Positions 22,979 through 28,843 of a DNA stretch of 36,898 nt are shown one piece after another. Position 1 is the first letter of the stretch; each line of letters begins with the position of its first letter. Below the pieces are notes generated by a model that ran no database searches, was not told where the DNA came from, and saw nothing but the letters and a program-made list of their open reading frames with translations. Made by a program: the position numbers and the translations under genes. Source of the stretch: Saprospiraceae bacterium (GTDB lineage: Bacteria > Bacteroidota > Bacteroidia > Chitinophagales > Saprospiraceae); the NCBI GenBank assembly GCA_020846655.1, contig JADLDL010000005.1, positions 1-36,898 of the forward strand, written 5' to 3'.

Positions 22979-23620
22979 ATGGTGCGTACTGCACAAATTC
23001 GTTTTATAAAAAAGGTCCCGGAAACGTTTCTGGAGCGGGCCGGAGCGCTGCTTTCAGGGACTTCATTCATGGGGATCAACCTGGAAGCGCTCCGCCTCCA
23101 GTGGGGCGAGCGGCCTTTGATCGAGGGAAAAGGATCGATTTGGCTGTGGTTTTGGGATCCCCGACAGGCTGCCCGTCGGGTGCTGCACCTGAGTTTTGGC
23201 GACGGCCTGGTTGCGGCATCTCCTGCCGAAGAGTGGTTCGATATTTCGATGCTTGACCCGGCTGCGGCCCCGGCGCGCCAAATTGAACTGGGTTTTGGCG
23301 GAGGGGCTACTGGTTTGCTGCGCCTGCAACTGCTCTGCCGGCGGCATGCTGAAACCTTGACAACGCCGGATGATATCCGGCGTTATAGCCACTTTTTTAA
23401 GGAGGAGAATTCACTTCCGGATGTACTTCTGGTGGAACACGATGTGGTGGAACGGCTTGTTTTTCAGTTGGAAGGAGGCCGGAGCCTGATCCTGGAGCGC
23501 GAAGACCAAATCGGTGTTTTCAAGTTGTATGTAAACGACGATGCCCAACTTGAGGCGATTTGGGCTGAGGTGGCAAGCCCCGAATGGGGGCGGGTAGAGG
23601 TGGTGGAGGTGAGCGGCTAA
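22979..23620 (+). CDS. Uncharacterised soluble protein
   Basis: This 213-residue protein starts M-V-R-T-A-Q-I-R-F-I-K-K-V-P and is not recognised as any family. It has no signal peptide and no membrane segment. It is rich in beta-type stretches (G-S-I-W-L-W-F-W-D-P, V-L-H-L-S-F-G-D-G, I-E-L-G-F-G-G-G) with a C-terminal acidic strand-rich part (L-V-E-H-D-V-V-E-R-L-V-F-Q-L-E-G-G). The frame is open from 22871, but the promoter box at 22911 favours the ATG at 22979. Its TAA stop overlaps by three bases with the stop of the XRE gene on the opposite strand, so the two are convergent without room for a terminator. The GC content looks like the surrounding genes. Confidence 0.6.
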   Translation: MVRTAQIRFIKKVPETFLERAGALLSGTSFMGINLEALRLQWGERPLIEGKGSIWLWFWDPRQAARRVLHLSFGDGLVAASPAEEWFDISMLDPAAAPARQIELGFGGGATGLLRLQLLCRRHAETLTTPDDIRRYSHFFKEENSLPDVLLVEHDVVERLVFQLEGGRSLILEREDQIGVFKLYVNDDAQLEAIWAEVASPEWGRVEVVEVSG

Positions 23621-23868
23621 TCTGCCGGCAAATCGTTGGGCCACTCAAATTCGAAGAGTTCTTTCACTTGAACCTCTAACGCAGTGGCGATACTGAAAAG
23701 TTGACTTACACTGGTGTTGATTATTCCTCTTTCAATTCTGGAGATTTGGCTTAGTTCCAAATCTGCTTTCCATGCCAATTCTTCCTGCGACAAATGCTTC
23801 ATTTGTCGAACAGTCCTGAGACGATTGCCTAAGGCTTTTAGAAATTGCACATGGCGCGTTTGCTTCAC
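23617..23868 (-). CDS. Small XRE-family (Cro/C1-type) HTH transcriptional regulator
   Basis: This 83-residue protein is essentially one helix-turn-helix domain: L-G-N-R-L-R-T-V-R, Q-E-E-L-A-W-K-A-D, L-S-Q-I-S-R-I-E-R-G, then L-F-S-I-A-T-A-L-E-V and K-E-L-F-E-F. This is the HTH_3 pattern seen in phage repressors, restriction-modification controllers and island regulators. The start is the GTG at 23868; no in-frame ATG is available near it. A perfect 20-bp palindrome lies 32 bases upstream (23901-23920) and is the obvious operator. The gene is divergent from the large lipoprotein gene, whose start is 172 bases away, so the regulator may control it. No ligand or dimerisation domain beyond the HTH is present. 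Confidence 0.88.
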   Translation of the reverse strand: MKQTRHVQFLKALGNRLRTVRQMKHLSQEELAWKADLELSQISRIERGIINTSVSQLFSIATALEVQVKELFEFEWPNDLPAD

Positions 23869-24040: not shown

Positions 24041-26011
24041 ATGTTTTATTCATTCTTCAATCGGGTGAACCTGATGGCCTATGCCATGCTTCTCACCCTG
24101 AGTTTCGTTTCTTGCCACAAGGATGCCCAAGATGGATTGGGTACAATGCAAAGCCTTACTTCCGGACCAACTCAGCACTATCCTATTTCACTTTCTGAAG
24201 TTCTGAAATTTTATGCTTCTGGTGGAGAACAGCAAGGCAATCCGTTAGATGCGGAAAAAATTATCGCGCTTGAGCCAAAGTGGGACGAAGCATTTACCGG
24301 CCAGTCGGTTTCCGGGAGAGAAATCCTGGTCGTGCCATTGCCGGATAGCATGCTGAAAAGTATCAATCATGGCCGGGCCGGAGCCAGGCTTCTTTTTAGT
24401 AAATACAGTGCAGATAGCATCCAGGCCGACCTTTTGGTATATGTTGCTGATTCGGCTTGGCACCAAAACAATAGCGGAGTCTTTGATTTGAGCACCTTCA
24501 CCGGAGCACTGGCTTTTTATGATGTTGGTCAGCATTTCCGGCATGCCATGTATGTACAAGCCGGCGTTCCAATTGCAGGTACAGACTTGATTTCGACACA
24601 GACCGCTGTTATTGCTGACGACCGGGATGTGCATTGTCAGGATTATACGGTTAGTTTTATCACCAGCATCTGTACGGATGTTGTTATCGCACTGGATTGC
24701 CCTGAGGTCAATGTATACATCAATACGTTTACGTTCCAACATTGCACAACGGTTTATACCGGCGGCGGCGGATCGGGTACAGGTGGGAACAGTGGCGGCG
24801 GCGGTAGCGGCGGGAGCAATAACGGCGGAAATGGCGGTGGCAACAGTTACAACCCGTATACCGATTTTGCCCTTCTTTTCAACGGAACGATCCCACTAAA
24901 CGTGTTTCTAGCCAATGGTGGACAGTTGCCGGAGGGGTACACCTCGGAGTCGTTTAAACAGTTGGTGTCGGCAAACAATAGTTTCAAATTTACGCCGAGG
25001 CAGATAGACTCTCTGCTGAAACACCCGGAATACATCCCGATTATTTACAACGCATTGTTCAATCCGGTGGGCGAAGAGGCTGCTATTTTAAAAGAAGTCC
25101 TGGATTTTGCCCTTGCGCATGGGTTGACGCCGACGGAGTTTCAGTATTTGCTATTGAATTATCCTTATTTTCAGAAAATCAAGCACATCGCATCAAAAAT
25201 TACTTTGAATACTCACCAACTTGGTTGGCTAATTGCTAACGGAGCTACCTTTGTTACTGATCAGGTTTATGATTTTATTCAGGATACAAATATTCAAGAT
25301 CCAATAACAATTCAAGAGTGCGTTGTCGCGCATTTAAGTTTTTTGATAGAGGACCCAGAGTATGCTGAATTGAATGAAGCAGCTTCACTTTGGCCTCCAT
25401 GGTTTTGGGAAATTGGTAGCGATATATTAATAGAGATTGCAGAAAAGGTTGTTAAAAAGCAACTAGGTATTACAATAGGCGAGGATGTTAAAAATGCTAT
25501 CAGGGATTGTGGAAGTTTTGATATTCTTGGATGCCTTGGTAACACTTTTGATGTTATGAGAAGGTTTTTTCCGGCACTCAAATTTGTAGATCTTACATTT
25601 GATGCAATTGAATTCGGGGGAAAAGCAAAAAATGTTTGGAAAGCGATTGAAAAGGTGCAAGCATTTGGGGAAGACGTTGGCTCTAAATTCTGGACTGTAT
25701 TAAAAACTCGATGTGGAAATTGGCTCGAAAATTTCAAATGGGTAAATAATGCTACGGGTGCATCATTAAAAAATTCAGGGAGCCCACTTTCCTTTTGGGA
25801 TGATTTAGAAAATTCATTGAAGCAAATTCCGGGAGTAAAAATTCTAACACCTGGTGAATTAGCACAATATGAATTAGCAGGGGTCCAACTAAATCACCCG
25901 TATGGACATAAAATAACCCTTAAATATGGAGGAAATACTAACCCAAATGGCTACACGTTGGTTTTTAAATTACAACCTGGCGGTGGCGAATTTAAAATTC
26001 GCTTTGATTAA
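24041..26011 (+). CDS. Large lipoprotein with Gly-rich linker and AT-rich C-terminal half, polymorphic-toxin-like
   Basis: The protein has 656 residues. The N-terminus ends in a lipobox, T-L-S-F-V-S-C, with Cys25 as the lipid site, followed by charged H-K-D-A-Q-D that resembles Bacteroidota surface-export signals. Residues 45-240 form a folded region (E-P-K-W-D-E-A-F, I-L-V-V-P-L-P) of a type I associate with Bacteroidota surface proteins but cannot name. Residues 241-269 are an almost pure Gly/Ser/Asn linker. Residues 270-365 are helical. From about residue 366 to the end the DNA is clearly poorer in GC (hand counts: 33 of 60 G+C at 24301-24360, but 23 of 60 at 25501-25560 and 24 of 60 at 25861-25920). 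This part holds a helical stretch and a final beta-rich segment ending G-G-G-E-F-K-I-R-F-D. Layout suggests a delivered toxin or variable effector; function is not established. Confidence 0.7.
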   Translation: MFYSFFNRVNLMAYAMLLTLSFVSCHKDAQDGLGTMQSLTSGPTQHYPISLSEVLKFYASGGEQQGNPLDAEKIIALEPKWDEAFTGQSVSGREILVVPLPDSMLKSINHGRAGARLLFSKYSADSIQADLLVYVADSAWHQNNSGVFDLSTFTGALAFYDVGQHFRHAMYVQAGVPIAGTDLISTQTAVIADDRDVHCQDYTVSFITSICTDVVIALDCPEVNVYINTFTFQHCTTVYTGGGGSGTGGNSGGGGSGGSNNGGNGGGNSYNPYTDFALLFNGTIPLNVFLANGGQLPEGYTSESFKQLVSANNSFKFTPRQIDSLLKHPEYIPIIYNALFNPVGEEAAILKEVLDFALAHGLTPTEFQYLLLNYPYFQKIKHIASKITLNTHQLGWLIANGATFVTDQVYDFIQDTNIQDPITIQECVVAHLSFLIEDPEYAELNEAASLWPPWFWEIGSDILIEIAEKVVKKQLGITIGEDVKNAIRDCGSFDILGCLGNTFDVMRRFFPALKFVDLTFDAIEFGGKAKNVWKAIEKVQAFGEDVGSKFWTVLKTRCGNWLENFKWVNNATGASLKNSGSPLSFWDDLENSLKQIPGVKILTPGELAQYELAGVQLNHPYGHKITLKYGGNTNPNGYTLVFKLQPGGGEFKIRFD

Positions 26012-26152: not shown

Positions 26153-26803
26153 ATGTTAACCTTTAACGGCCTTTTGCCCCAATTCACGCTCGAACAACTG
26201 CAACAATGCTTCCTACAAGCTGCTGCCAACCGTTTCCAACTACAATATACCACGGTTGGACTCGGCGTCGATCCCGTGCTGATTGAGTGCAGGGGGAAAC
26301 TGCGGGTCAGTTTTGAGCGCTCCGATGGATCGGCGATCCACCTGGATCTGACGTCCCTGTTCGGCGAAGTGGATATCCCCCTGGTGGAGCAGGGCAAACT
26401 GCATATCGATGTGCATACGGAACATTGGAAGCCCCTGGCCGAGCAGCTCGCCGAGCCCCAGGTCGCCGAATTCTACTGCACCCTAGCTTATCCAGACATG
26501 GCGCCTATCGCTGCCATTCAATGCTACGGCAATCAACTGGACGAGGTCTTGAACACCATCGACCCCGATATCGACCTCTCTTTTTTACAAGAACAATACG
26601 GGCTCAACGAATTCCCCCGGGTACTTTGCCAATCGATAGAATTCGTCGTGTTCTGCCACAAAAACGGCCGAAAAACGATACTTGTCCTGCAATCCGGCGG
26701 CTTCAGGGTTCTTTTTTACGAAACAGTGCCCGACCTGCCGGCCTTGTTGCACCGCTACAACCCCTACGGCAAAAACACTGTCCTGCATCAGGAAGTCTCC
26801 TGA
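26153..26803 (+). CDS. Uncharacterised protein downstream of the toxin-like lipoprotein
   Basis: This 216-residue protein starts M-L-T-F-N-G-L-L-P-Q-F-T-L-E-Q-L. It has no signal peptide or membrane segment and no family I recognise. It looks like a compact alpha/beta protein with strands such as L-R-V-S-F-E-R-S-D-G-S-A-I-H-L-D-L and I-E-F-V-V-F-C-H-K-N-G-R-K-T-I-L-V-L. The frame is open from a TTG at 26102, but the ATG at 26153 is more likely. It follows the lipoprotein in the same direction by 141 bases, the place where an immunity gene would stand. However, its base composition is like the chromosome and not like the AT-rich end of the lipoprotein gene, so that role is only a possibility. 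The patatin gene follows after 120 bases. Confidence 0.6.
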   Translation: MLTFNGLLPQFTLEQLQQCFLQAAANRFQLQYTTVGLGVDPVLIECRGKLRVSFERSDGSAIHLDLTSLFGEVDIPLVEQGKLHIDVHTEHWKPLAEQLAEPQVAEFYCTLAYPDMAPIAAIQCYGNQLDEVLNTIDPDIDLSFLQEQYGLNEFPRVLCQSIEFVVFCHKNGRKTILVLQSGGFRVLFYETVPDLPALLHRYNPYGKNTVLHQEVS

Positions 26804-26923
26804 TGCCCTACCCAGCCCCCTCCCACAAAGTCGAAAAAAATATACTATTTGGACTGTAACATTGCCTGAGCCGTGGCCTTTACTGCCCCGGACCTATTTT
26901 TTCTCCATAAATCAAAAAAAACC

Positions 26924-28843
26924 ATGTTGACCGCTGACGATTTGCGTGCTGAAGTCGACGTCCTGGTCGCCGACCTCAAACAAGAACTTGCCCACAAAGT
27001 ATTTTCCGATCTGGTAGAATTGGACGAAAAAGGCTGCATCCGCCACCAATACGTGGACCTGGTGCAGGAGGGTGGGGGCGTGCTCGGCGTAGCCCTCATG
27101 GGCTACTGCTACGTGCTCGAACAAATGGGTATCCGTTTCCTGAGCCTGGCCGGCACCTCCGCCGGCGCCATCAACACTGTGCTGCTGGCCGCCGCCGGCC
27201 AACCCCACGAAGAACGCGTGGCCCGGGTGCTGAACGTAGTGGCGCCCAAAAGTTTCCGGGATTTTATCGACGGCAGCCGCCTCAAACGCTGGGTGGTCCT
27301 GCGCTTCCTGGGCGGCGGTGGCTTCAAAAACAACCTGATCCGCTTCCTGCTCCTGCTGCTCTTGCTGCCGCTCCTGTTGCTCCGGGCGCTGGCCTGGGGC
27401 CTCTGCAAAATCCTCAACCTGCTGCTGAAGGTGCCGATGCCCCGGTTCCTGCTGTTCAAAGGCCTCAACAGCGGCGACAACTTCCGCCGCTGGGTCCGCA
27501 CCGTGCTCCAGGGTTTTGATGTGCGCAATACCGCAGAGATCAACCAAAAAATCCAGCCCGATTGGGCGCGCCTGCACTTGCTGGGCAGCGACGGCAAAAC
27601 CTACTACCTGCACCCCGACCGCCGCCCCAAGGTCAAACTGGCCCTCATGAGCACCGATATCACCACGCTCACCAAGGTGGAATTCCCCGACATGGCGCCG
27701 CTCTATTTCCCGGATTTTCAATCTGTTTCGCCCGCCGAATACGTGCGCGCCTCCATGTCGGTGCCCCTGTTTTTCAATGCCTCTGTGCGCAAAACAGCCG
27801 CTTTGCAGGCCAACAGCCAGGCCTACACGGCCCTGCGGCAAGCCAAACGCTTCCACTACAAAGGCCCGATGCCCAAGGAAGTGTATTTCGTGGACGGCGG
27901 CGTGTTGTCCAATTTCCCACTGGACACGCTCTACGAACCCGGCGTGGTGCCCCTGCGGCCCGTGTTCGGCGTGAAACTCAACTACGACGACCGCATCGAA
28001 AAAATCCACAACCAAAGCCTGAGCCGCCTCGCCCTGCAAACCTTCGACACCGCCCGCCGCCTGCACGATGCCGAATTCCTCAAAACCCGCCCCGAATACG
28101 AGCCGGCCATCGGTTATATCGATACCGGCGAGGTGTCCTGGCTCAATTTTGACTTGCCGGACCAGGAGAAAAAACAACTCTTCCTGGCCGGTGTCATGGC
28201 CGCGCGCGAATTCCTGCGCCGCTTCGATTGGAACGACTTCAAAGCCCGGATCGAAGACAAACTCATCCAGGAAACCCAGGACCTGCTCTGGACCGCCTGG
28301 GAAAAAACCGAAGTGTTTCCCGACAAAATCGCCTACCTCGCCGCTGCGGCCGCCGCCCGGCACCGAAATTCCGCCCCGCCAGCCGATATCCGCGCCCTGC
28401 GCCAGCAAATCCAGCGCGTCGGCACCTTGCGGGTCCTGTGGGTCGACGACAACCCGGTGAACGACCTGCTGGAATTCTACCTCTTCCGCTACCTCGAAAT
28501 GGAACGCCAGCACGCCCGCTCCACCCAGGAAGCCATGCAAGTGCTCCGCGAAAAAGGCAAGGCGCATTTTTGGCTGGTGGTGACCGACAACCGCCGGGGC
28601 CCCAACAACAACGAGGGCATCGAACTCATCCGCCAACTGCGCGACAGCGGATATGAGGGCCATATTGTGCTCAGTTCCAAGTCCTACAACGAAGTGGCCC
28701 GGCAGGCGGGCATGCCACCGCTGGCCAAAGACATCACGGTGCTGGAGCACAATTCGCCTTCGGCCCTGGTGGCTGTTATTGCCCGCTTGCTGGAACAATC
28801 CAACACCGGAGCCCCGCCGGATGACCCGGCGCTGGAGCTGTGA
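26924..28843 (+). CDS. Patatin-like phospholipase fused to a C-terminal receiver-like domain
   Basis: The protein has 639 residues. The patatin domain covers about residues 45-345: oxyanion loop G50-G-G-V-L-G55, nucleophile Ser79 in G-T-S-A-G, and catalytic Asp324 in V-D-G-G-V-L-S-N-F-P. This Ser-Asp dyad hydrolyses acyl esters of lipids in the family. A very hydrophobic leucine-rich segment near residues 140-175 suggests membrane contact. Residues of about 505-625 look like a response-regulator receiver: L-W-V-D-D-N-P (Asp508/509), L-V-V-T-D-N-R (Asp555 at the acceptor position), I-V-L-S-S-K (Ser584/585 at the Thr/Ser position) and a possible late Lys602. The spacing (46 and about 30 residues) resembles CheY. 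The ATG at 26924 gives M-L-T-A-D-D-L-R; the earlier open frame is not favoured. No kinase gene is adjacent, so the input is unknown. Confidence 0.88.
   Translation: MLTADDLRAEVDVLVADLKQELAHKVFSDLVELDEKGCIRHQYVDLVQEGGGVLGVALMGYCYVLEQMGIRFLSLAGTSAGAINTVLLAAAGQPHEERVARVLNVVAPKSFRDFIDGSRLKRWVVLRFLGGGGFKNNLIRFLLLLLLLPLLLLRALAWGLCKILNLLLKVPMPRFLLFKGLNSGDNFRRWVRTVLQGFDVRNTAEINQKIQPDWARLHLLGSDGKTYYLHPDRRPKVKLALMSTDITTLTKVEFPDMAPLYFPDFQSVSPAEYVRASMSVPLFFNASVRKTAALQANSQAYTALRQAKRFHYKGPMPKEVYFVDGGVLSNFPLDTLYEPGVVPLRPVFGVKLNYDDRIEKIHNQSLSRLALQTFDTARRLHDAEFLKTRPEYEPAIGYIDTGEVSWLNFDLPDQEKKQLFLAGVMAAREFLRRFDWNDFKARIEDKLIQETQDLLWTAWEKTEVFPDKIAYLAAAAAARHRNSAPPADIRALRQQIQRVGTLRVLWVDDNPVNDLLEFYLFRYLEMERQHARSTQEAMQVLREKGKAHFWLVVTDNRRGPNNNEGIELIRQLRDSGYEGHIVLSSKSYNEVARQAGMPPLAKDITVLEHNSPSALVAVIARLLEQSNTGAPPDDPALEL

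Follow-up and report, generated by a model that had tools for sequence, protein, structure and literature searches.

A predicted lipid-anchored polymorphic toxin with exchangeable C-terminal tails in a Saprospiraceae bacterium

The stretch of Saprospiraceae DNA analysed here, which is 36,898 nucleotides long and is referred to as the window, carries a gene whose product opens like a lipoprotein and whose second half is markedly richer in A and T than its first. A preliminary description took it for a polymorphic toxin, which raises the questions of whether its C-terminal part is exchanged among relatives, how a lipidated protein of this kind might reach other cells, and what might protect the cells that produce it. 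On the comparison with relatives set out below, we consider it likely that this Saprospiraceae-type bacterium carries here a module built around a polymorphic toxin with a lipid anchor, a type of toxin that is little described in Bacteroidota. No other description of this toxin family was found at title level in the open-access literature.

Table 1. Features of the toxin locus, with positions in the window.
Feature	Position	Strand	Basis
Divergent XRE-family regulator, 83 aa, like restriction-modification control proteins	23617..23868	-	Pfam HTH_3, PADLOC
Candidate XRE operator, perfect 20-bp palindrome TTTAGGCAAATTTGCCTAAA	23901..23920	.	Uniqueness and conservation
Predicted lipid-anchored polymorphic toxin, 656 aa	24041..26011	+	Open reading frame without internal stop, plus family comparison
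Signal peptide and lipobox, Cys25 predicted to be lipidated	24041..24115	+	Read by eye and pattern filter
H-K-D-A after Cys25, export-signal-like C-x-K-[D/E] motif	24116..24127	+	Motif counts in relatives
N-domain, aa 26-235, constant part of the family	24116..24745	+	Alignment of relatives
Linker rich in Gly/Ser/Asn, aa 236-270	24746..24850	+	Translation
Middle region, aa 271-445, common to N-family relatives, containing the GC break at 25139	24851..25375	+	
'Pre-toxin' stretch, aa 446-556, common to relatives with differing tails	25376..25708	+	
C-terminal tail, aa 557-656, presumed toxin domain, ending FKIRFD	25709..26008	+	
Candidate immunity gene, 216 aa from ATG, pI 4.9, no signal peptide	26153..26803	+	Position and charge

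Architecture of the protein and exchange of its tail

The N-terminus has the sequence of a signal peptide and lipobox, the lipobox as had been claimed, reading SFVSC-HKD around Cys25, and residues ~241-268 are Gly, Ser or Asn nearly throughout. The earlier hand counts of GC along the gene (33, 23 and 24 of 60) were exact. A likelihood method placed the best single change-point at base 25139 (aa 367), with a GC of 0.489 before it and 0.362 after, a break that none of 200 shuffles reached, and GC3 falls along the gene from 0.47-0.60 to 0.25-0.31. The drop reported near 25140 is real, but the linker, which had been taken as the junction, is a separate place, the composition break lying ~100 aa beyond it. 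Likewise, the first half does have the higher GC of the two, but at 0.47 the N-part is below the window mean of 0.57, so its supposedly normal GC is only relative. Nor does the exchanged part begin at residue 366, where a division of the protein for searches had been proposed. Residues 4-541 align to a relative (G020/L002) whose end is then a different domain and, judged from the relatives, the exchanged tail comprises about aa 557-656, later than the break; the AT-rich part (aa 367-656) therefore consists of a leading stretch, the pre-toxin (~446-556) and the tail.

A BLAST-type search matched the protein in 18 of 100 related genomes, its own included, and the matching was mosaic, with the first half alone found in some genomes (e.g., G009, G007 and G022) and the last third alone in others (G043, G099 and G050). 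The family is patchy, i.e., a profile of the N-domain matches 16 of the 42 genomes of the genus and is absent from 26, and a second, divergent copy lies in the window's own genome on contig C387. Among 395 genomes sampled from the class and phylum the N-domain was found in eight. A broader N-domain profile gave 13 of 395 genomes with a best E-value up to 2e-6, the only ones counted, and these include at least one (L167) that is not toxin-like in appearance; at 1e-3 it gave 44 of 395, with many matches barely exceeding the signal peptide and lipobox. A profile of the window-type pre-toxin and tail (E up to 0.01) matched 4/395 class genomes and 6/395 phylum genomes, the window's own included. 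A Pfam scan of 13 N-domain family members gave no match above chance level, and a search of 72,556 plasmid records for plasmid-borne copies returned no match. Truncated family copies were seen in three loci (L004, L006 and L041), and transposase genes follow directly after those of L004 and L041.

Many different C-termini are found behind the first part, as the preliminary description had predicted of a polymorphic toxin. Among 37 N-family relatives scanned with Pfam, an AHH nuclease tail was identified in five (L007, L012, L015, L010 and L035), an EndoU tail in two (L013 and L020) and an M23 peptidase tail in one (L165). Six further peptidase matches lie below the cut-off (SprT-like in L106 and L163, C39-like in L107 and L160, M91 in L164, M35-like in L166), and the tails of the other 23 gave no informative Pfam match. 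Two relatives (L002 and L096) have a tail in common; its HHA[VI]P stretch looks HNH-like by eye, but Pfam gives no match for it. An unknown tail type with the motif NPIC...VNCD...NC was observed in five loci (L003/L087, L008, L032, L033/L082 and, in the window's own genome, L038/L116).

Tails are also exchanged within single genomes. Three paralogues of G412 keep 83-100% identity throughout the 60-aa windows that start no later than aa 481 but only 10-38% in those from aa 571 on, so that near-identical N-parts carry three different tails in one genome. Two paralogues of G377 pass from 67-100% identity, in windows starting up to aa 271, to 0-25% from aa 331, while a third copy, 93-100% identical in most windows and 63% in the first, has a frame that stops soon after the constant part. 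The G412 paralogues adjoin genes that by eye are reverse-transcriptase-like, of group II intron type (L118 9297-12425 and 16345-17625; L119 8760-9296). AT-rich tails, such as the window's had been said to be, are common: of 16 genes picked for their readable starts, 14 have a lower GC in the last 100 aa than in the N-domain (Wilcoxon p 4e-4). A constant N-part is joined here to exchangeable C-terminal domains, which is how a polymorphic toxin is recognised, and the earlier reading was right in the main, given the recurrence of the N-part with unrelated tails. Homologues that are collinear over the full length with an unvarying C-terminus are not what the relatives present, and a collinear envelope protein without tail variation was rejected on the mosaic matches and the paralogue breaks.

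Within the window's own protein, the pre-toxin is 19-36% identical to those of L002, L096, L005, L014, L016 and L043. The tail, which is basic (pI 9.1), is 47% identical in L005, from another genus of Saprospiraceae, and 19-36% identical in L014, L016, L017 and L043; F, K and R are the sole invariant residues of the tail alignment across six relatives. This second part had been expected behind different N-termini, and it does recur behind other N-parts in these five loci (L005, L014, L016, L017 and L043). However, four of them are divergent and not unrelated: a BLAST-type search missed the N-parts of L005, L014 and L016 and matched that of L017 weakly, but profile comparison makes all four remote homologues of the window N-domain (hhalign 95.7%, E 9e-9, 40 columns). 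Searches of Pfam, NCBIfam, PADLOC and PDB sequences did not link the window tail to any known toxin family; the PDB sequence searches were uninformative, one returning mainly glycine-rich linkers. Its assignment to one particular nuclease fold was dropped for lack of profile support.

These properties of the tail bear on the possibility that the window carries a decayed or non-toxic copy in a family of toxins, its tail being a remnant or an envelope domain. The missing family match and the three invariant residues would fit such a copy, as would the broken copies of L004, L006 and L041 and the difference in composition between the tail and the next gene. However, the 656-codon frame is open, the tail keeps its 47% identity in L005, and it recurs in L014 and L017 directly ahead of genes that start within 4 bases of its end or overlap it, so we regard decay as unlikely.

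The regulator and the downstream genes

The XRE regulator (Pfam HTH_3, E 2e-10; best PADLOC match Control_protein, E 1e-13) is 59-73% identical to nine homologues that adjoin family genes. The 42 genomes of the genus hold 13 close homologues (E below 1e-19), the window's included. Ten of these adjoin a family gene, truncated in three cases (L004, L006 and L041), and the others lie at a contig end (G022, C13), with a transposase directly upstream (G009), or beside another secreted-protein gene (G017). Where loci bearing the regulator are named, their MAGs have the labels Saprospiraceae, Saprospirales, Chitinophagales, Bacteroidota or Bacteroidetes. By eye, members of the regulator family also stand beside a C39-peptidase/ABC exporter-like gene (L092, 973-3490) and a secreted subtilisin-like protein (L089, 1200-5243).

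The palindrome upstream of the regulator is the single site in the window's genome within three mismatches, against 0 expected from shuffles of the window. A counterpart was found in 13 of 13 XRE upstream regions examined, of which 12 are beside lipobox proteins and one (L089) beside the subtilisin-like protein, and in 11 it keeps the same distance, 35 bases, to the start of the XRE gene. Seven regions have a 14-bp core of full symmetry, four a core with one asymmetry and two a core with two; no more than 3 of 1000 shuffles reach such a score, for a motif derived from the very sites scored. The halves covary (AGGCAAA, AGGCGAA, TGGCAAA), and a conserved palindrome whose halves change in concert points to autoregulation of the XRE gene. 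It would also be a candidate operator for XRE control of the toxin promoter. Neither this pair of regulator and palindrome nor the C-x-K-[D/E] motif discussed below was foreseen in the preliminary description.

On the other side of the family genes, 28 of 29 loci have an ORF of 90 aa or more on the same strand close downstream, L105 being the one without. The own-genome copy on C387 was left out of the 29-locus table, and the gene after it resembles an ordinary secreted protein. By a simple filter, signal peptides are present in 0/15 partners beside nuclease-like or window-type tails, 2/3 beside peptidase-like tails, 4/4 beside NPIC-type tails and 0/6 beside other unknown tails; the partners of L106 and L112 did not pass it, although by eye they resemble secreted proteins. 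For the NPIC-type tails a signal peptide or lipobox opens the next gene in four of five loci, which suggests a periplasmic target for this tail type, and loci L082 and L087 carry two to three tandem partner copies that are homologous by eye. Tandem homologous partners also occur in L016 and L043, weakly related between the two loci (E 5e-4 to 0.03).

The gene downstream of the window toxin has its ATG 141 bases after the toxin gene and, with a GC of 0.54, is host-like and not AT-rich. It has no similarity to the partners of other window-type tails, and sequence kinship with them was rejected. Among 99 other genomes it has a single homologue (G015, 31%), and ahead of that homologue lies a partial gene with homology to the gene behind the L014 tail (BLAST 1e-7, phmmer 3e-8); this neighbourhood is an indirect sign of an immunity cluster. 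The G015 contig ends at the partial gene, and BLAST-type searching of this genome found no toxin gene. It is plausible, from sequence context, that the window's gene confers immunity. Further downstream, at 26873-28843, lies a gene that by eye resembles a patatin-like phospholipase with a receiver-like end.

Downstream partners also bear on the target. Proteins of this family could be directed at eukaryotes such as grazing protists, or at prey, and not at kin, in which case the downstream genes would not encode immunity. Lipobox effectors that are aimed at a host and have polymorphic tails have been described from Bacteroidetes (PMC3482391), and some of the present tails are peptidase-like, with one near the M91 'effector protein' family. 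However, the small downstream ORF in 28 of 29 loci, the homologous partners in tandem and the way in which signal peptides vary with tail type make such a target very improbable. Since tails are exchanged between relatives and some are known toxin enzymes, the swappable-tail lipoprotein is probably a weapon against competing bacteria.

Surface signal, known systems and a proposed route

All nine aligned relatives have Cys25 and Lys27, and so do all 13 of a wider set. The motif C-x-K-[D/E] occurs in 24 of 27 relatives picked for a readable start, nine of which fail the lipobox filter, and in 2 of 24 other lipobox ORFs, drawn from 451,733 bases of the window's genome with a crude background filter. 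With the identical filter on both sets it occurs in 17/18 relatives vs 2/24 others (Fisher p 1e-8, a value overstated by the shared descent of the relatives). The optimum of the Capnocytophaga lipoprotein export signal (LES) is described as C-X-K-(D/E)2-X (PMC5080379), and in Bacteroides surface SusG is reported to need such a signal if it is to be packed efficiently into vesicles (PMC6222051). The window motif, C-H-K-D-A, has one acidic residue whereas the published optimum has two, and that optimum, coming from Capnocytophaga, may not be the signal of the host genus. The Cys-x-Lys-Asp signal probably helps to expose the toxin on the surface.

A lipidated and possibly surface-exposed toxin had been called an unusual delivery form, which is fair, but there are precedents in SitA (PMC5562445) and in the lipobox/Cystatin-like toxins (PMC12419801). 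SitA of the myxobacteria was called in 2017 the first polymorphic toxin that is a lipoprotein itself (PMC5562445), and its escort domains have been described for myxobacteria (PMC8546572). It has nuclease tails, as the present family does, together with lipidation, an N-terminal escort part and a downstream immunity gene (PMC5562445), of which the present family has predicted or candidate counterparts. However, SitA travels by TraAB outer-membrane exchange, its authors report no homologues outside Myxococcales and, compared by its description there, it is without the export-signal motif (PMC5562445).

The lipobox and Cystatin-like-domain toxins are described as having a constant N-terminal domain, interchangeable tails and linked immunity proteins (PMC12419801). 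The present family resembles them in its lipobox, constant N-part, partners and exchangeable tails, which in that system include papain-like or peptidase-related ones (PMC12419801). By the same account (PMC12419801) their tails act on lipid or wall and their immunity proteins are membrane-bound or lipoproteins, whereas nuclease tails and cytoplasmic partners are frequent here. With the N-domain compared by description, the present family may be this published system.

Other toxins of the phylum share single elements. The APD1/APD2 lipobox effectors of Amoebophilus and the Microscilla-N toxins are likewise from Bacteroidetes, with constant N-parts and polymorphic C-termini, but APD1/APD2, which follow a lipobox, are predicted by their description to act on a eukaryotic host (PMC3482391). 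BSAP of Bacteroidales is a lipoprotein with antibacterial action that reaches the surface by means of a lipoprotein export signal, but the BSAP proteins are described as MACPF pore-formers without interchangeable enzyme tails (PMC12853789), and the window protein has no Pfam MACPF match. TANFOR toxins are also from Bacteroidetes and have AHH and EndoU tails and immunity genes; unlike the window protein they are large and carry a TANFOR domain, with T9SS proposed (PMC7073777). Even with E allowed to rise to 1, NCBIfam gave no match for the window protein, and on that basis the TANFOR domain (TIGR02542) is judged absent. The reported absence of RHS repeats and of a T9SS sorting domain agrees with the Pfam and NCBIfam searches, which gave no match, and membership of the TANFOR, T9SS-tail or RHS groups was rejected on this ground. 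That a T9SS or T6SS-type machine carries the protein, its lipidation being incidental or its start misread, is barely credible: the TANFOR toxins of Bacteroidetes have been suggested to use T9SS (PMC7073777), but a T9SS tail or TANFOR match is missing here, and Cys25 and Lys27 are invariant in the nine relatives and the 13 of the wider set.

We return to the reading of the gene as a lipid-anchored toxin. Counting against it are the unmatched window tail and the 23 of 37 relatives with uninformative tails, the distance, composition and lack of kinship of the next gene, the single acidic residue of the motif and the patchiness of the family. By sequence comparison, the locus combines a modular architecture, tail exchange, a lipobox and a conserved regulator with its palindrome. 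From these we infer surface exposure, a delivery route, toxicity of the window tail and the identity of the immunity gene, as follows. The XRE regulator would govern its own gene, and probably the toxin gene, through the palindromic operator. The toxin would leave by Sec, be lipidated at Cys25 and go to the outer membrane, where the Cys-x-Lys-Asp signal would probably bring about surface display and perhaps vesicle loading. The N-domain (aa 26-235) would serve in escort or display, taking the toxin to a neighbouring cell by contact or in vesicles, and the basic C-terminal tail would enter the target and harm it, the cytoplasm being the most likely site of action. Sister cells would be shielded by a cytoplasmic protein, the one encoded by the next gene. 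The combined proposal, that a family of lipid-tethered toxins uses a Bacteroidota surface-export signal and not a secretion machine, under the control of a Saprospiraceae XRE/palindrome switch, is put forward tentatively, with somewhat less than an even chance of being correct in full.

If true, Bacteroidota would have a route for lipid-anchored toxins without a dedicated secretion machine, parallel to SitA of the myxobacteria. It would then become testable how a lipid-anchored nuclease gets into the cytoplasm of a neighbour, and whether Saprospiraceae tell kin from rivals by such toxins. Furthermore, the pair of regulator and palindrome offers a handle for locating more antagonism genes.
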